A stretch of 44,898 nucleotides of DNA from positions 1 through 44,898 of the forward strand of contig CALHLE010000011.1 in the NCBI GenBank assembly GCA_938034415.1, in the 5' to 3' direction. Shown in pieces: positions 20,131-29,954 of this stretch (its first letter is position 1; the number at the start of each line of letters is the position of its first letter). A model generated the notes under the pieces. The model did no database searches. It was not told the origin of the DNA and saw only the letters and a list, made by a program, of their open reading frames with translations. Position numbers and translations under genes: made by a program. Source of the stretch: an uncultured Anaerolineae bacterium. GTDB taxonomy: Bacteria > Chloroflexota > Anaerolineae > J036 > Brachytrichaceae.

Positions 20131-20670
20131 TTAAGGCATCGGCGTGCTCGTCGGCTCCGCTGTCGGCGTAGGCGTGTCCGTTGGCGTAGGGGTGAGCGTC
20201 GGTATAGGCGTGTCCACAGGCGCAGGGGTATCGGTCGGCGGCGCAAGCGTCGGCGTAGTCGTAGGCGTTTCAGTTGGTGTGGCCGTCGGGGTGTGAGTCG
20301 GTGTAGCCGTAGGCGTTTCGGTCGGCGTTGGCGTGTGAGTCGGCGTAGCTGTGGGCGTTTCGGTCGGCGTTGGCGTGTGAGTCGGCGTGGGCAAGCCGCG
20401 CGTCGGCGACGGCAGGCCAGTCGGCGTGATCGTTGGCGGCACGAACTGGGTGGGCAAGTCGGCCAACGTGGGCGTGGCCGGGCGCGTCTCGGTGGCCTGC
20501 TGAGCTGGTGATGCAGTCGACGCGACGAGCGGATTTTGATTTGGCCGCTGCAGAATGACAAGCGCGGCAAAGCCAAGCAAGTAGCACGGAATGGTTAGGA
20601 GAATGATGCCGATGAGCACGCTGTAAGCAACGCGATTTCGGCGCGGCGCGTTGTCGGGGACGTCCTGCAT
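20131..20670 (-). CDS. Membrane-anchored Thr/Pro repeat protein
   Basis: The protein has 179 residues. A short basic cytoplasmic start is followed by one strong membrane helix (about 17-40, SVLIGIILLTIPCYLLGFAA). The rest is a long extracellular stretch of Thr-Pro pairs (TPTPTETPTATPTH and variants) with no folded domain. The 14-residue unit comes from a 42-bp imperfect tandem repeat at about 20277-20394. Such regions usually act as wall-spanning stalks or O-glycosylated spacers. The gene is head to head with ileS, 49 bases from its start, and converges on the LCP gene across a CGGCTTAAGCCG palindrome (20118-20129). Function is unknown. Confidence 0.65.
   Translation of the reverse strand: MQDVPDNAPRRNRVAYSVLIGIILLTIPCYLLGFAALVILQRPNQNPLVASTASPAQQATETRPATPTLADLPTQFVPPTITPTGLPSPTRGLPTPTHTPTPTETPTATPTHTPTPTETPTATPTHTPTATPTETPTTTPTLAPPTDTPAPVDTPIPTLTPTPTDTPTPTAEPTSTPMP
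20277..20394. repeat. 42-bp imperfect tandem repeat, about 2.7 units
   Basis: Repeats built from GTCGGCGTTGGCGTGTGA and GGCGTTTCG blocks recur every 42 bp. They encode the TPTPTETPTATPTH unit on the minus strand. Copy number may vary between strains by slippage. Confidence 0.7.
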
Positions 20671-20700: not shown

Positions 20701-20724
20701 AACATTGTGTAGACTGACAATGTT
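20701..20724. promoter_or_regulatory. Inverted repeat overlapping the ileS start codon
   Basis: AACATTGT (20701-20708) and ACAATGTT (20717-20724) form perfect 8-bp arms around an 8-base spacer. The ileS ATG (20720-20722) lies in the right arm. A second, nested ACAAT/ATTGT pair lies at 20696-20708. It could be an operator for a dimeric regulator, or an RNA hairpin that hides the start codon. Confidence 0.35.
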
Positions 20725-23700
20725 TCAGCCAGTTGCGACCCAGATTGACTTCCCGGCTCAGGAACGCGATGTGCTCGCGTTTTGGGCGCGCACGCGGGCC
20801 TTCGACCGCTTGCGCGAGTTGCGCGCCGACTCCGACAAACGCTTCTCTTTCATAGACGGCCCGATCACCGCCAACAACCCAATGGGCGTGCATCACGCTT
20901 GGGGCCGCACCTACAAGGACTTGTGGCAGCGCTACTTCGCCATGAAGGGCTACAACCAGCGCTGGCAAAACGGCTTCGACTGCCAAGGGCTATGGGTCGA
21001 GGTCAACGTCGAGAAGGACATGAGCTTCAAGTCGAAGCGCGACATTGAGGCCTTCGGCATGGAGCGCTTCATCGGCCTGTGCAAGCAGCGCGTGCTGAAC
21101 AGCGCCGCCATGCAGACCGAGCAGTCCATCCGGCTAGGCTACTGGATGGACTGGAACGACCCGGAAGAGCTGCGCTGGCTGGCCCAAAAGATCGTCGAAG
21201 ACCCTCAACAAGTCATCACCCTCGAGCGCAACGGACAGCCGATCACCGGCACCGTCGAGCAAATCGTTGGCCGGCTCGGCCTACCGGAACTGGGCGGCTC
21301 GTACTTCACCTTCAGCGACGAGAACAACTATCAGATTTGGAGCTTCCTGAAGAAGTGCCACGAAAGGGGCTGGATTTATCGCGGTGAAGACGTGATCCCG
21401 TGGTGCCCCCGCTGCGCTACCGGCATCAGCCAGCACGAGATTGACACCGAAGGCTACAAGGATCGCGAGGACCCGGCCATCACCGTGCGCATGAAGCTCA
21501 AGTCGTTCGACGTGAGCCAGGCGACCTGGGTTAGCCCGCAGGCGCGCGCCAAGTTCGACCACGCGCCGGGCAAGTTCCTGCTGGCCTGGACGACGACGCC
21601 CTGGACGCTGCCGGCCAACGTCATGGCCTCGGTCGGCCCCAAGCTGACCTATGCCATCGTTCGGCAACTGCACAAAGATGGCGAACTGGCCGTGTACTTC
21701 CTCAGCAACAAGACGCTGAGCATCCTGCGTGGCGAATACGAGGTGCTGGGCGAGATTCAGGGCGAACACATGGCTGGCTGGACGTATGAAGGGCTGTTCG
21801 ACGACCTGCCGGCGTTTATTGACGCGCACAAGCGCTGGCAAGATAAGCACGACGGCCGCACCTTCGCGCATACCGTCATCACCTGGGATGGCGTGGGCGA
21901 GGACGAAGGCACCGGCATCGTGCACAATGCGCCCGGCGCCGGCCCGGAGGACTATCAGCTTGGCAAGCAACACGGCATGCCGAAGATCGCCCCGCTGAAC
22001 GAGGACGGCTACTTCCTGGACGGCTTCGGCGAACTGACCGGCAAGCACGCCCACGAGGTGCCCGACTTAGTCGAAGCGCTGCTCAAGGCCAAAGGCTACT
22101 TCTATCGCCGTGACAAGTATATGCACCGTTACGCCCACTGTTGGCGCTGCGGCACGCCGCTGGTCTATCGCATGGTGGACGAGTGGTACATCAGCATGGA
22201 CGAGCTACGCTACGCCATGATGGCCGTGTCGGAGCAGATCAACTGGATCCCTGCTTTCGGCAAAGAGCGCGAGCGGGACTGGTTGCGCAACATGCACGAC
22301 TGGATGATCAGCAAGAAGCGCTACTGGGGGCTGGCGTTGCCGATCTGGGAGTATCCCGACGGCACGTTTGAGGTCATCGGCAGCTACGAAGAGCTGAAGG
22401 CGCGCGCCGTCGAGGGCTGGGAGGAATTCGACGGCCACACGCCACATCGGCCCTATATTGACAAGGTCAAGATCAAACATCCAGTCACCGGCCTCATCGG
22501 CACGCGCGTGCCCGACGTGGGCAATCCGTGGCTCGACGCCGGCATCGTCGCTTACTCCACTCTGCGCTACCGCACCGACCGGGCGTACTGGGAGCAGTGG
22601 TTCCCAGCAGATTTCATCACCGAGAGCTTCCCCGGCCAGTTCCGCAACTGGTTCTACTCGTTGATCGCGATGAGCACGGTGCTGGAAGGGCGCATGCCCA
22701 CGCGCACCATCCTCGGCTATGCGACGCTGCTCGACGAAAAGGGCGAGCCGATGCACAAGAGCAAAGGCAACGCCATCGAGTTCAACGAGGCTGCCGACAA
22801 GGCCGGCGCCGACGTGATGCGTTGGCTATATGCGCGCCAGCGCTACGACGACAACCTGCTGTTCGGCTACAACGCGCTCAACGAGGTCCGTCGCCAAGTC
22901 ATCATCCCGCTGTGGAACGTCTATGCCTTCTTCGTCACCTATGCCAACGCCGACGGCTGGTCGCCCAAGCCACAGGAGGCGCAGGAACAGCCGACTATGC
23001 TCAGCGCCCTGGACAGGTGGGTGCTGGCCCGGCTGGCCGAGACGACAAACGCGGTCAACGCGGCGCTCGACGCCTACGATGCGCGGCCGGCGGCGCTGGC
23101 CATCGAGAAGTTCATAGACGACCTGTCGAACTGGTATGTCCGGCGCTCGCGCGAGCGCTTCTGGGGCAGCCAGATGACGACGGACAAAGAAGCAGCCTAT
23201 GCCACGCTCTACGAAGTGCTCACCACGCTTGCCCGGCTGATCGCCCCCATCGTCCCCTTCATCAGCGAAGTGATGTGGCAGAACTTGCGGAACGCCGATT
23301 TCCGCATCCAGAACCCGGAGGACAACCGCCGGCTGCGCGAATCACGACGCGCGTTCTCCGTGCATCACCAGCCCTATCCGCAGCCGCGCGAGTTGACGGA
23401 AGAAGAACGCGCCCTGCTGCGTGAGGTGGCGCTGGTCCGTGCGGTGGTTGCGCTCGGCCACAGCACCCGCGCCCAATCGAAGGTGAAGGTGCGCCAGCCG
23501 CTGCGCAAGGCCATGATCGTCGCCGACGACGAAGCGCGCCGGGCGATCCTCGCCCACTACGACGTCATCACCGATGAGCTGAACGTCAAAGCGCTGGAGT
23601 TCGTCGAGCGCGAGGGCGAACTGGTCAGCTATCGCGTGTTGCCAGACCTGAAGAAATTGGGCAAGAAGCTGGGCGCCGACTTGCCAAAGGTGCGCGCCGG

Positions 23701-24151
23701 TCTGGGACAACTCGACCCATCGTCGGTCGTCGCTGCGGTCAAGGCCGGCCAACCCGTCGCCGTGAACGGCGTCTCGCTCCAGCCGGATGAGGTCATCGTG
23801 CAGGCCGTCCCCCGCGAGGGGTTGATCGTTGCCGGCGAGAACGGCATCGTCGTCGGCCTGGATACCACGCTCGACGAGGCGTTGATCGCCGAAGGGTTAG
23901 CGCGCGAGGTGGTGCGCCGCGTCAACGACTTGCGCAAGACTGCCGGGCTGAACGTCTCCGACCGCATCCATTTGGCCTACAACGCCAGCGACCGCCTGCG
24001 GCGCGCGATCGCCGACTTCGCCGACTACATCGCCGGTGAAACGTTGAGCGTTGCGCTGAGCGAGGGCCAACTGGCGGACGGCGTCAGCGCCAGCGATGCC
24101 TTCGACGGCGAGCAGCTCACGATCTCGATCAAAAAGGTATCCGATCGGTGA
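20720..24151 (+). CDS. ileS: Isoleucyl-tRNA synthetase (eukaryote-like type)
   Basis: This class Ia synthetase charges tRNA-Ile and edits Val. From ATG 20720 it has 1143 residues. The HIGH-equivalent is HHAWG (58-62) after GPITANNPMG, and the KMSKS loop reads MHKSKGN (678-684). The CP1 editing domain contains TTPWTLPANVMASVGP and EDEGTGIVHNAPGAGPEDY. Zinc-type cysteine pairs are WCPRC and CWRCG. GLALPIWEYPDGT belongs to the catalytic core. The C-terminus carries the anticodon-binding helices and a DUF5915-like tail (REGLIVAGENGIVVGLDTTL). The arrangement matches the type 2, often mupirocin-resistant, IleRS. TTG 20705 is less likely as start. It leads a plus-strand run with the KAP fusion gene and lspA. 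Confidence 0.95.
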   Translation: MFQPVATQIDFPAQERDVLAFWARTRAFDRLRELRADSDKRFSFIDGPITANNPMGVHHAWGRTYKDLWQRYFAMKGYNQRWQNGFDCQGLWVEVNVEKDMSFKSKRDIEAFGMERFIGLCKQRVLNSAAMQTEQSIRLGYWMDWNDPEELRWLAQKIVEDPQQVITLERNGQPITGTVEQIVGRLGLPELGGSYFTFSDENNYQIWSFLKKCHERGWIYRGEDVIPWCPRCATGISQHEIDTEGYKDREDPAITVRMKLKSFDVSQATWVSPQARAKFDHAPGKFLLAWTTTPWTLPANVMASVGPKLTYAIVRQLHKDGELAVYFLSNKTLSILRGEYEVLGEIQGEHMAGWTYEGLFDDLPAFIDAHKRWQDKHDGRTFAHTVITWDGVGEDEGTGIVHNAPGAGPEDYQLGKQHGMPKIAPLNEDGYFLDGFGELTGKHAHEVPDLVEALLKAKGYFYRRDKYMHRYAHCWRCGTPLVYRMVDEWYISMDELRYAMMAVSEQINWIPAFGKERERDWLRNMHDWMISKKRYWGLALPIWEYPDGTFEVIGSYEELKARAVEGWEEFDGHTPHRPYIDKVKIKHPVTGLIGTRVPDVGNPWLDAGIVAYSTLRYRTDRAYWEQWFPADFITESFPGQFRNWFYSLIAMSTVLEGRMPTRTILGYATLLDEKGEPMHKSKGNAIEFNEAADKAGADVMRWLYARQRYDDNLLFGYNALNEVRRQVIIPLWNVYAFFVTYANADGWSPKPQEAQEQPTMLSALDRWVLARLAETTNAVNAALDAYDARPAALAIEKFIDDLSNWYVRRSRERFWGSQMTTDKEAAYATLYEVLTTLARLIAPIVPFISEVMWQNLRNADFRIQNPEDNRRLRESRRAFSVHHQPYPQPRELTEEERALLREVALVRAVVALGHSTRAQSKVKVRQPLRKAMIVADDEARRAILAHYDVITDELNVKALEFVEREGELVSYRVLPDLKKLGKKLGADLPKVRAGLGQLDPSSVVAAVKAGQPVAVNGVSLQPDEVIVQAVPREGLIVAGENGIVVGLDTTLDEALIAEGLAREVVRRVNDLRKTAGLNVSDRIHLAYNASDRLRRAIADFADYIAGETLSVALSEGQLADGVSASDAFDGEQLTISIKKVSDR

Positions 24152-24198: not shown

Positions 24199-25977
24199 AT
24201 GATTCAAGACACGCTGCAGCAGCCACGAGGACAAACGCCGCCGGCCATCGCTGCGCTGCCGGGCATCGAACTGAGCGTCGGGCAAAACCAGGCGCTCGAT
24301 GCCGTGCTGGCCGCGCTAGACCGGCCGGGGCTGCGCCGCGCAATTGGCCTCTTCGGCCCCCATGGCAGCGGCAAAACCACGCTGCTGAACGAACTTTGTA
24401 AGGGTGGCTTGCATGCCCGGCGCACCCCCCAGCATCGCAAGGTCGTCTGCGCGCCGATCAACGCAGCCAATCTGCCGACCGACCTGGCCCCCTGGCAACG
24501 CCTGATCTTCGGTGTGCTCGACAAGCTGGCGCAACAGCCCGGCGCGCCGGCGACCGTCTATGAACTGCGCGCCGAACTGGAAGAGGTGGTGCAACTTGAG
24601 GTGAACGACGACGCGAGCGCCACGCTCGCCGCCGCCGCGTTTGCCCACCATATGCGCGCCGCATTTGCCGGAATGATCCACAGCACCATCACGCTCTCGA
24701 ATGCGGTGTTCGTGGTAGCCATTGACCACCTCGATAAAGCGTCGTCGGAAAGCATCGCCCAACTCCTAGAAGCCTCAAAATACTTCCTCGATGCGCAGCA
24801 TTGCGCCACGTTGATCTGCGCCGACGAATCTGAGCTTATCCAGAAGCTCGGCGATGCGGAGGTGCTGCGCGCTTGGCTCACCGACCGGGTCGAGTTGCGC
24901 ATGAGCGAGCGTCCGACGCACCGCGGGGTTGCCGTCGTCGCTCCCCCTCGGCTGCCGCAAGCGTCGCCGCGCCCCGTCGCTGCGGACATCCCGCCGCTCT
25001 GTGCGCAACTCTTCACCGAAATCTTGGGGAGCGACCGCTATGCGATCGAGCGCGCCGGGGAACACTGGCGCGCAGCCATGCGCGCGCTGGCTAGGCGCAA
25101 CGCCGAGGGCTACCACACCGATGTATCTGGCGTGATGCTCGCCAAGTTGTGCGCGTTGCGCGTGCTTGCGCCGGGCCTGTTCGACGCCGTCCGCCTGGAT
25201 GCGCCGGCGCTGACTGCGCTCGAACGGCGCGCGCGCCTGCAGAATCCAGCCCATGACCACTATGACGAATGGGCCGAGGCGCTGGCGCGCGACCCGCGCC
25301 TGACCCGGCTGTTCACTGCTGCGCCGAGCTTCATCGGCGTTGACACACGCCTCTTGGCGACCGCACTGCGCCTGGTGCATACCGGCGATGAAGCGACAGT
25401 TCGGCAAACAAAACCGCTCGCAGCCAAACCGGCGGAAAGCGGCGTTAAGCTCGTCAATCTGAACCGGCTTCGCCTGCATAGGCAGCCCTCATCCGCGGCG
25501 TCCCCTGCGCCGATGTGGACGCCGGTCGCGGTTGCGGCCGGCGTGTTCATCGCAGATCGCTTGATCAAGATGGCCATCCAATCCGTCGAGGGCCTCCGCA
25601 CCGGCGCGCCGGCGCTCGGTGGGCTGATCGGGCTGCAGCCCCCCCCAGCAGCCAACCTGCTGGACATCGGATTGACCATTGGCATCACGCTGGTCGGCCT
25701 GGCGCTGTGCGTCCTCATTGCAATCTTTGCAGGCCGGCGCGTTGACGACAGGCGCACCACAGCATACGGGCTGCTCGCCGGCGGGCTGCTCGCCAACCTG
25801 TTTGACCACCTCACGTACGGCGCAGCAATGAACTACCTGCACGTTGCCAACTTGCCGGTGTTTAACCTGGCCCATCTCGCGCTGTTGGCCGGTGCAGCGC
25901 TGCTGGCCGTCGCCGTCCTGACCGACTCATCACATGCCGCGCATAGGCGCGACACAGGCGATCTTGCCCATGAGTGA
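24199..25977 (+). CDS. KAP-type P-loop NTPase fused to an inactive signal-peptidase-II-like domain
   Basis: The protein has 592 residues from ATG 24199, chosen for the AAGGGGG ribosome site 5 bases upstream; GTG 24148 overlaps the ileS stop and is an alternative. Residues about 25-235 are a KAP-like NTPase: Walker A LFGPHGSGKTTLLNEL (Lys59) and Walker B VFVVAIDHLDKASSESIAQL (Asp176, Asp179), then EASKYFLD and a sensor region LICADESEL. A helical region follows to about 435. Residues about 440-575 have four membrane segments and align with LspA: IADRLIKMAI (Asp453, Lys457), GGLLANLFDHL (Asp536) and LPVFNLAHLAL. Both catalytic Asp positions are replaced, by Asn545 (AMNYLH, LspA usually V-D-F) and His559 (NLAH, LspA usually NLAD). 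The stop overlaps the real lspA. It may be a membrane-tethered ATPase that binds or regulates lipoprotein substrates or LspA. Confidence 0.75.
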   Translation: MIQDTLQQPRGQTPPAIAALPGIELSVGQNQALDAVLAALDRPGLRRAIGLFGPHGSGKTTLLNELCKGGLHARRTPQHRKVVCAPINAANLPTDLAPWQRLIFGVLDKLAQQPGAPATVYELRAELEEVVQLEVNDDASATLAAAAFAHHMRAAFAGMIHSTITLSNAVFVVAIDHLDKASSESIAQLLEASKYFLDAQHCATLICADESELIQKLGDAEVLRAWLTDRVELRMSERPTHRGVAVVAPPRLPQASPRPVAADIPPLCAQLFTEILGSDRYAIERAGEHWRAAMRALARRNAEGYHTDVSGVMLAKLCALRVLAPGLFDAVRLDAPALTALERRARLQNPAHDHYDEWAEALARDPRLTRLFTAAPSFIGVDTRLLATALRLVHTGDEATVRQTKPLAAKPAESGVKLVNLNRLRLHRQPSSAASPAPMWTPVAVAAGVFIADRLIKMAIQSVEGLRTGAPALGGLIGLQPPPAANLLDIGLTIGITLVGLALCVLIAIFAGRRVDDRRTTAYGLLAGGLLANLFDHLTYGAAMNYLHVANLPVFNLAHLALLAGAALLAVAVLTDSSHAAHRRDTGDLAHE

Positions 25978-26515
25978 GGAAGCGCGCGTCGCAGAATCGC
26001 ACTCGCCGGTGGAAGGAGCGGATCAACCGGCTGCTGCTTTGTTCTTCCAGCGCTACGGGGTGTTGTTACTGGTGGCGAGCATCGCCCTGGCTGCGGACAT
26101 CATCACCAAGCGCATCGTCGAGGCGCAGATTCCGCTCTACACGTCCATCCCGGTCATCGGCTTCTATCTGAGCTGGACGCACACCCAGAACACGGGCGCG
26201 GCGTTCAGCCTGTTCCAAAATGGCGGCGTGTTCTTCATCGTCGTCGCGCTGGTCGTGTCAGCGGTAATCCTGTATTACGCGCCTCGGCTTCCAGCCGGCG
26301 ATTGGTTGGCGCGGGTCGCTTTGGGGCTACAGCTCGGCGGCGCCATAGGCAACTTGCTCGATCGCCTGCGCCAGGGTTACGTCACCGACTTCATCCACTT
26401 CCAGATCCCCGAAATCGGCTTTGACTGGCCGGTGTTCAACATCGCCGACAGCGCCATCGTCGTGGGCGTGATTTTGTTGATCGCAGCCAGCCTCCTGCGA
26501 GACAACAAAGCGTAA
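25970..26515 (+). CDS. lspA: Lipoprotein signal peptidase (signal peptidase II)
   Basis: This membrane aspartyl protease cleaves the signal peptide of diacylglyceryl-prolipoproteins. It has 181 residues from ATG 25970, with about four membrane segments and all five family motifs: AADIITKRIV (Asp43, Lys47), HTQNTGAAFSLF, GGAIGNLLDRLRQGYVTDFI with catalytic Asp140, and VFNIADSAIVVG with catalytic Asp160. An N-terminal tail of about 25 residues is longer than usual. The start overlaps the stop of the KAP fusion gene by 8 bases, so the two are translationally coupled. The HAD phosphatase follows after 6 bases. No lgt or rluD homologue, common lspA neighbours, is present. Confidence 0.95.
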   Translation: MSEEARVAESHSPVEGADQPAAALFFQRYGVLLLVASIALAADIITKRIVEAQIPLYTSIPVIGFYLSWTHTQNTGAAFSLFQNGGVFFIVVALVVSAVILYYAPRLPAGDWLARVALGLQLGGAIGNLLDRLRQGYVTDFIHFQIPEIGFDWPVFNIADSAIVVGVILLIAASLLRDNKA

Positions 26516-28090: not shown

Positions 28091-29815
28091 TCACTGCGCA
28101 TCTTCGTCGGCGCGTTGTTCCGCGGGCAGCAGCACCCAGTAATCGAAGCCGTTCATCCTGAAGTGACGCGCCCAATAGTAGTTGCGGAAGATCGCCTCCT
28201 TGACATCGTCGGGATAGAACAGGGCGCGGAAGATCACCGCGCCGAACGCGCGCTGCTCGATCATGGCAATCATGCGCGAGGTGTCGAGCATTCCGCTTTT
28301 AGAGAGGTTGAGCAACTGCGTCGGATTGGTCACCACGTCCTTGCCGGCCAGCAGCGTGAGCATCGCCTCCTCGCTCCACACCGGCCCTGGCACGTTGCGG
28401 ATCATCTCCACCATCGCCCAGCCGTTGGCGGCATCGGCAGGGTCGAGCAGATGGCCGAGCTGTGTGAAGCCGGCAGAATCGTAGTAGGGATAGGGCGGAT
28501 ACGACGAGACATCGGCGACGCCGATCGCCCGCGCGACCGCGCCGAAGATGCGCCCGCTCGTCGGCAAATGCAGGTTGAGCGCGGCCTGGAGGAAGAAGAC
28601 CAGCGCGGCGAGCGCCGGCAGATAAGGCGCGCGGCGCGCGAGCTGCGCCTGGCCCTCCCCCATGCGCGCTATGCAATGCGCGATGCGCGCCAGCAAGCCG
28701 GCCGCGCACACACACGAGGCCGCGATGGCGGCGATGAGATAGGCCGGCCCGGCGCCCCACTTGCCGGTCAACATGCCCATCGCGCCGCCGGCGACGAAGT
28801 AAAGCGACCAAACGGTGATCGGCCTGAGCGAACGGGCGCGCGCGGCTCGCGCGACATCCCACGCGACGTAGAGCGCGCCGCAAATGATCAAGATGCCTTG
28901 GAGCCGAAACCACTGGCCGTAGGTCTGCCAGGTGACGGCAATGTCGTACTCGTTCACGTTGGCCAGCACCACGTTCAACCAGAACTGGCCGTTCGTCGCC
29001 GCGTTCATCCCCAGCACCAGCGCGCCGGTCACCAGCGCGCTGACGGCGAGCGCAAGCGCAAACCACTTGGGCCGGCGAATCAGCAGATACGCAAAACCGG
29101 CGACCAGCGCATCCACCGCCTGCAGCTTGGTAAAGCCGGCGATCAGGAGCAGGACGACGCCCAGCGCGCTGTATCTTGCCTGCGCCGCCGGAGGCGGCGC
29201 CCGGCGCGGGTCAAGGCCGATGTCCAGGCAACTGATCCCGGCGAAGGCAAACATCACCATCGGCAGATGCGCGCGCGCCAGCGGCCCGACCTGGTAGACG
29301 TAGTTCGCTGCAAAGAACGCCAGCGCGGCCAATAGCGGCACGCAGAGGCGCAGCAGGGAGGCGCGCGGCGCGCGGCGCGACTTTTGCGCGCCGTCTGCCA
29401 ATTCCTCCGGCTGCCACAGCCGGCGCGCCGCGAGGAAGATCAGCGCCCCGATCGCCAGCGATGTGGCGAAGGCGAGGGCGCGCCCCACCCACAGGTGCGG
29501 CCCGAACAACGCCACCAGCGGCGCGAGCAAGAGCCGATAGACCGGCGGGTAATTCGAGGCGTAAAAGGGGAATTCCGCGTTGTCCAGGTAGATGCCTTCC
29601 CCGCGCGCCAAGCGGATGGCGTCGTAGAGTTCAAAGCCCTCACCCTGGTCGTAATCGAACGGGAAGGTGAACAGCGCGCGGGCATAGACCAGATAAATGA
29701 CGAAATAGCCGGCGAAGATGGCTATCGTCAGCCCCAGCGCAACGACGGATAGCGATGAAAGCGCAGCGCCGAAGCGCGAGTGCGGCGGCATGCGCGGGGG
29801 AGTAGCCGGCGGCAT
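28091..29815 (-). CDS. Multi-pass membrane glycosyltransferase-like protein (GT-C fold)
   Basis: The protein has about 574 residues and roughly ten to twelve membrane segments. The early extracytoplasmic loop FPFDYDQGEGFELYDAIRLA carries the acidic Asp/Glu expected of GT-C enzymes that use polyprenyl-phosphate sugars, and YASNYPPVYRLLLAPL is typical of Chloroflexota members. The C-terminal 150 residues lie outside the membrane (VSSYPPYPYYDSAGFTQLG and following). It may glycosylate envelope lipids, polymers or proteins. The start is taken as ATG 29815 (MPPATPP); GTG 29851 is also open. It precedes scpA by 17 bases. Specific substrate unknown. Confidence 0.7.
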   Translation of the reverse strand: MPPATPPRMPPHSRFGAALSSLSVVALGLTIAIFAGYFVIYLVYARALFTFPFDYDQGEGFELYDAIRLARGEGIYLDNAEFPFYASNYPPVYRLLLAPLVALFGPHLWVGRALAFATSLAIGALIFLAARRLWQPEELADGAQKSRRAPRASLLRLCVPLLAALAFFAANYVYQVGPLARAHLPMVMFAFAGISCLDIGLDPRRAPPPAAQARYSALGVVLLLIAGFTKLQAVDALVAGFAYLLIRRPKWFALALAVSALVTGALVLGMNAATNGQFWLNVVLANVNEYDIAVTWQTYGQWFRLQGILIICGALYVAWDVARAARARSLRPITVWSLYFVAGGAMGMLTGKWGAGPAYLIAAIAASCVCAAGLLARIAHCIARMGEGQAQLARRAPYLPALAALVFFLQAALNLHLPTSGRIFGAVARAIGVADVSSYPPYPYYDSAGFTQLGHLLDPADAANGWAMVEMIRNVPGPVWSEEAMLTLLAGKDVVTNPTQLLNLSKSGMLDTSRMIAMIEQRAFGAVIFRALFYPDDVKEAIFRNYYWARHFRMNGFDYWVLLPAEQRADEDAQ

Positions 29816-29954
29816 GAGTTCTTCGACCACGATGCCGGCCCAATTTACCACGCGCGCATCGTCGCTTCAACGCGCGCGCCGCGCGCCCTGACACGGCGGT
29901 CCTTCAAGTCGCCCAGATGAAACGCGGCACTTGCCGGCCGAAACTAAATAGCGC

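Follow-up and report, generated by a model that had tools for sequence, protein, structure and literature searches.

A KAP-like NTPase fused to a catalytically inactive LspA domain in an order of Anaerolineae

Introduction

Maturation of bacterial lipoproteins is usually described in terms of Lgt, LspA and Lnt, and to our knowledge this description includes no energy-dependent regulator. LspA (MEROPS A8, PF01252; PDB 5DIR and 6RYO) is an aspartyl protease built from four membrane helices, with both termini being cytoplasmic. KAP P-loop NTPases (PF07693), which have QatA, RdrA and PifA as relatives, are classically tethered to the membrane.

In LspA from S. aureus 14 residues are highly conserved, i.e. 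D21, K25, N52, G54, G102, N106, D109, R110, V116, D118, F132, N133, A135, and D136, and globomycin as well as myxovirescin engage the Asp dyad of the enzyme (PMC6952399). NTPase-FGS architectures, including those with a KAP NTPase, have been described as counter-invader systems (PMC8195603).

Here we analyse a gene in which a KAP-like NTPase and an LspA-type domain devoid of the catalytic Asp pair are joined in one polypeptide. Both parent families are already known, whereas the fusion with an inactivated LspA is new: neither an LspA pseudoenzyme nor an LspA-NTPase (KAP-LspA) fusion was found described in the open-access literature searched, in agreement with the initial annotation of this DNA, which knew of no system of such design. 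The finding is surprising because the inactivation of LspA is fixed across an entire order.

Results

The locus

The window, i.e. the whole stretch of DNA that was analysed, is an entire contig of 44.9 kb from a genome of 2.83 Mb that is 98.5% complete and has Ca. Roseilinea and Thermoflexales MAGs (Chloroflexota, Anaerolineae) as its nearest named relatives. The fusion gene (24199..25977, plus strand) encodes 592 amino acids, begins with an ATG preceded by AAGAAGGGGG and ends with TGA at 25975-25977. Its neighbours are ileS, coding for isoleucyl-tRNA synthetase (20705..24151, plus strand), which lies directly upstream of the fusion in all 27 loci checked, a genuine lspA with both catalytic Asp residues (25970..26515, plus strand; PF01252 2.3e-38) and a gene for an HAD hydrolase. 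The stop of the fusion gene and the start of lspA (ATG 25970) are both contained in the string ATGAGTGA, and the overlap reported initially, whose span of 24199-26515 takes in both genes, is thus confirmed and amounts to 8 bp. A longer lspA reading frame starting at 25934 is possible in the window, yet we regard 25970 as the conserved start since the frame of homologue L006 opens only just ahead of the later start. Two further genes in the window lie on the minus strand: upstream of ileS and opposite to it, 20131-20670 encodes 179 residues, comprising one membrane helix and, after it, a long tail rich in Thr and Pro (TPTPTE), and 28091-29851 encodes a membrane protein of 586 residues that has no Pfam match at 1e-5 and resembles a membrane glycosyltransferase.

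The NTPase and the middle domain

The initial proposal of a KAP-like NTPase joined to an LspA-like domain is borne out by Pfam, as KAP_NTPase (1.3e-9), AAA_16 (1.6e-9; both within residues 27-217) and Peptidase_A8 (PF01252; 8.8e-10, residues 446-574) all match above their gathering cut-offs. The PF07693 score amounts to 38.2 bits at a cut-off of 20, with the best stretch covering only the Walker B part of the profile (positions 141-199 of 293), and 22 of the 25 full-length fusion homologues match this family. The NTPase domain (24265..24906, plus strand; residues 23-236) contains the predicted Walker A (GPHGSGKT, K59) and Walker B (VVAIDHLD, D176/D179) motifs, is continuous in the AlphaFold2 model and has RdrA as its nearest solved fold (Z 14.7). 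No window of 19 residues between positions 23 and 436 reaches a mean hydropathy of 1.6. As the membrane segments inserted in classical KAP domains are therefore absent from the NTPase, we use the name 'KAP-like'; the membrane part of the fusion is the C-terminal LspA domain instead.

Among the homologues W99, F148, Y195, and F196 of the NTPase are invariant, and Walker B is retained in most of them. Walker A is less stable: K59 is found in 19/25, G58 and K59 have been lost together in genus g7, and the motif is eroded further in L020 and L021. Overall, about a third of the homologues are affected.

Genera g2 and g5 lack the helical middle domain (24976..25398, plus strand; residues 260-400). 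Among proteins from outside the order, those found to be closest to the NTPase and the middle domain are KAP-FGE (FGS) proteins of other Anaerolineae, with profile E values in the set searched of 1e-18 to 1e-24 and about 1e-7, respectively, i.e. the two domains are shared, whereas the fusion carries the pseudo-LspA domain at the C-terminal place of FGE/FGS. None of the 25 fusion members has a match to the FGE/FGS domain PF03781. Three of these relatives, L146, L147, and L148 (PF07693 and PF03781), may belong to conflict systems. The fusion scores 18.4 bits against the QatA equivalog (cut-off 600) and has no Qat partner genes, and only the NTPase fold matches RdrA of RADAR, with neither an RdrB deaminase nor another RADAR partner beside the fusion.

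The pseudo-LspA domain

The four membrane helices at the C-terminus (25507..25929, plus strand; residues 437-577) have an LspA fold. We calculated AlphaFold models from alignments of the fusion sequences alone, i.e. without any LspA, and obtained, from the N-terminus to the C-terminus, the P-loop NTPase, the helical middle domain, a linker of low confidence (residues 402-437) and four helices. With its pTM of 0.42, the full model does not predict how the two halves are arranged. The C-terminal part of this model superimposes on LspA from S. aureus and P. aeruginosa with Z 15.8-16.0 and an rmsd of 2.3-3.1, and the domain modelled alone reaches Z 13.8 to LspA as compared to 6.6 for the best unrelated fold, resulting in an overall range of Z 13.7-16.0 to 5dir, 6ryo, and 6ryp. 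When the profile of the domain was searched against the PDB, LspA entries were the only matches (E about 1e-15). Thus, residues 440-575, which had been singled out for a profile or structure search, do align with LspA (Z 14-16) in models and profiles alike, and a chance likeness of a four-helix membrane domain can be rejected on the basis of the Pfam match, the Z scores and the PDB matches. Against the NCBI equivalog TIGR00077 the fusion scores 35.6 bits, below the cut-off of 73.95, whereas the neighbouring lspA product scores 119.8 bits.

Profile alignment to solved LspA structures and comparison with the neighbouring LspA place N545 and H559 at the positions of the catalytic Asp pair (D118 and D136 in S. 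aureus), as the initial annotation had stated for this one protein, and the loss is conserved across the order: the second position is His in 25/25 full-length homologues, the first is Asn in 21/25 and H, D, T, or A in the other four, and no homologue (0/25) has both Asp residues. Consequently, the domain being a second active LspA can be rejected as far as aspartyl proteolysis is concerned. We also searched about 90 other Chloroflexota LspA sequences for the catalytic Asp residues by pattern matching and read the flagged sequences by eye, one of which proved to be unrelated; both Asp residues are kept there, divergent stand-alone paralogues included. The double loss is therefore derived and has become fixed in the fusion family, and it is not noise.

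Other LspA features have been retained. The equivalents of D21 (D453, 25/25), K25 (K457, 24/25) and D109 (D536, 25/25) are present, i.e. the D..K motif of helix 1 and the Asp of the N..DR motif, and so is the FN.A element preceding the second catalytic position (F555 and N556 in the window protein), F132 being kept by the family, N133 in 21/25 and A135 in 19/25. At the position of R110, Arg is found in 20/25 homologues and His in the window protein. D453, L503, D536, H559, and G565 are invariant in the membrane domain. The claim that the fold motifs are kept thus holds for helix 1 and helices 3/4, but the initial annotation had not mentioned that the N-x-G motif of the cradle and lid, formed by N52 and G54, is lost, with no N.G in the region between helix 1 and helix 2 as compared to 6ryo, 5dir, and the neighbouring LspA. 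This loss makes classical substrate binding doubtful and weakens the suggestion that the pseudo-enzyme binds signal peptides in the manner of LspA.

Distribution and selection

Of the 28 genomes of the order that were analysed (relatives of Ca. Roseilinea and Thermoflexales; one family, eight genera), 27 carry the fusion, either complete or as a fragment where a contig ends, the single genome without it being 78% complete. The fusion is hence not restricted to one assembly. It is absent from 277 further Anaerolineae genomes sampled, where ordinary LspA and other KAP proteins accounted for the matches, and an even draw across the phylum yielded only LspA frames of ordinary size outside the order. 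An artefact of assembly or binning can be rejected in view of the 27 genomes, one of which consists of a single contig and one of five; likewise, a pseudogene is ruled out, as the reading frames of the full-length homologues are long and open and dN/dS values lie well below 1.

Within the genus dN/dS is 0.09-0.20 for the NTPase, 0.30-0.58 for the pseudo-LspA domain and 0.07-0.21 for lspA, which indicates purifying selection, and the NTPase is the slower-evolving half of the fusion. Together with the residue patterns these values imply that both halves are constrained, although ATP hydrolysis and aspartyl proteolysis are both unlikely to be universally conserved. The pairwise identity of the fusion correlates with that of lspA (Spearman 0.63; the pairs are not independent), as expected for vertical descent, and there was no match among plasmid records that would indicate a mobile origin. 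The fusion gene behaves as a vertically kept core gene of the order, in contrast to the patchy distribution of KAP-FGE/NTPase-FGS genes.

Linkage to lspA and origin

In 22 of 25 full-length loci, representing seven of the eight genera, lspA lies directly downstream of the fusion; the genes overlap in 14 loci (four genera) and are separated by 11-95 bp in eight. The exception is genus g2, where the fusion is still next to ileS and lspA is found elsewhere: two genomes have other genes after the fusion, and in the third the contig ends at the fusion while lspA is internal to another contig. Of 64 lspA loci from other Chloroflexota, about 25 have an ileS gene at a distance of no more than about 1.5 kb. 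Given that this proximity is common in the phylum and that g2 has the fusion without an adjacent lspA, linkage is weaker evidence for joint function than the initial annotation had assumed, and it may be a relic of tandem duplication or ancestry. Still, the two genes have kept their overlap in much of the order, which is consistent with joint function.

By the same two observations the simplest history is a duplication of lspA within an ileS-lspA operon, after which the upstream copy would have been joined to a KAP-like module and disarmed. The tree, which is dominated by long branches, gives the pseudo-LspA clade a single origin (99 SH-aLRT), and grouping this clade with the LspA proteins of the order is not rejected by the AU test (p 0.951).

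The lipoprotein pathway is present in the source genome, as shown by homologues of lgt and one intact lspA. The Lgt-family matches of this genome (G000, contigs C33 and C35) are three in 2.8 Mb.

Discussion

We propose that the fusion protein is a membrane-embedded pseudo-LspA that positions a KAP-like nucleotide switch where lipoproteins are matured and acts on LspA or its substrates, a reading that we favour tentatively. More generally, the pseudo-LspA domain is probably a regulatory or docking subunit tied to lipoprotein maturation, and the fusion points to an ATPase-linked membrane step, possibly in this pathway. Its membrane topology, its partner, its ligand and its role as a switch we infer. 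A four-helix domain of LspA-type ancestry, stripped of protease chemistry and cradle, would hold the cytoplasmic KAP-like switch at the inner membrane and might dock on LspA or on an unprocessed lipoprotein in the membrane; the NTPase domain would then change its state by nucleotide binding and in this way tune or report lipoprotein processing, with hydrolysis probably being dispensable in some lineages. In a doubtful variant, the protein would be a membrane sensor of lipoprotein maturation in which the inactive LspA is a bait for unprocessed lipoproteins or LspA-attacking agents and gates the nucleotide switch, so that these bacteria might read the state of lipoprotein processing via a pseudo-protease made together with the real LspA.

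Close behind the docking switch we place a simpler scheme, which is quite conceivable: a duplicated lspA may have been captured as nothing but four helices that anchor a KAP-type NTPase unrelated to lipoproteins, with the linkage to lspA left over from the duplication. A tandem duplicate would be expected just where the fusion is found, since ileS is close upstream of lspA in about 25 of the 64 loci from other Chloroflexota, and the AU test, the g2 loci lacking an adjacent lspA, the faster evolution of the pseudo domain within the genus and the classical membrane tethering of KAP proteins all fit. Such an anchor leaves unexplained, however, why H559, D453, and D536, which correspond to active-site or fold positions of LspA, are invariant in 25/25 homologues while Walker A erodes in some genera.

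The same invariance could be read as an aspartyl site rebuilt around N545 and H559 for another membrane reaction that would be regulated by the NTPase, e.g. acyl transfer or hydrolysis with lipoproteins or lipids as substrates. H559 is strictly and N545 nearly conserved, D453 and D536 are invariant as well, and a His dyad performs lipoprotein chemistry in Lit, an enzyme unrelated to LspA (PMC8689077). We nonetheless consider such a reaction unlikely, as four homologues have H, D, T, or A in place of N545, no second invariant fusion-specific residue was seen at the site and the substrate cradle is gone. Even less probable is a defence-type sensor, in which the C-terminal sensor of a KAP-FGS-like conflict chassis would have been swapped for an LspA bait by which antibiotics directed at LspA, or invaders, are sensed. 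This is what the kinship to KAP-FGE proteins, the counter-invader role ascribed to NTPase-FGS systems, RdrA as the best fold match and the fast evolution of the pseudo domain would suggest, but the fusion is a core gene whose syntenic position is the same in 27 genomes, has no plasmid match and only weak PADLOC hits, lacks an effector domain, has an eroded Walker A in about a third of the homologues and is devoid of the Asp dyad that globomycin and myxovirescin engage. A defence role, which the initial annotation had mentioned for KAP NTPases in general, is thus unsupported.

If the docking switch proposed here is correct, a nucleotide switch tied to an inactive LspA would be the first hint of an energy-dependent layer in lipoprotein maturation. 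Independently of this, the protein is the first LspA pseudoenzyme found in our literature search, and its 25 natural sequences show which parts of LspA are retained once catalysis has been dropped, which helps to tell residues that serve the fold of this antibiotic target from those for catalysis and substrate.

Divergent second copies of LspA also exist as stand-alone proteins in other Anaerolineae (L134, L135, L136, L137, and L138 in G028, G066, G055, G033, and G074, respectively). Several of them have extra N-terminal sequence and much of the usual motif set is missing, but unlike the fusion they keep both catalytic Asp residues and are not fused to an NTPase. Within the order, the stand-alone LspA of G016 (L189, contig C47; 8.6e-24) is divergent and differs in type from the one usual in the order, which looks like a replacement of the original lspA, and a genome of genus g7 (G026, contig C99) has a second stand-alone LspA gene (L190), which is flanked by genes for a thioredoxin-like and a CcdA-like protein.
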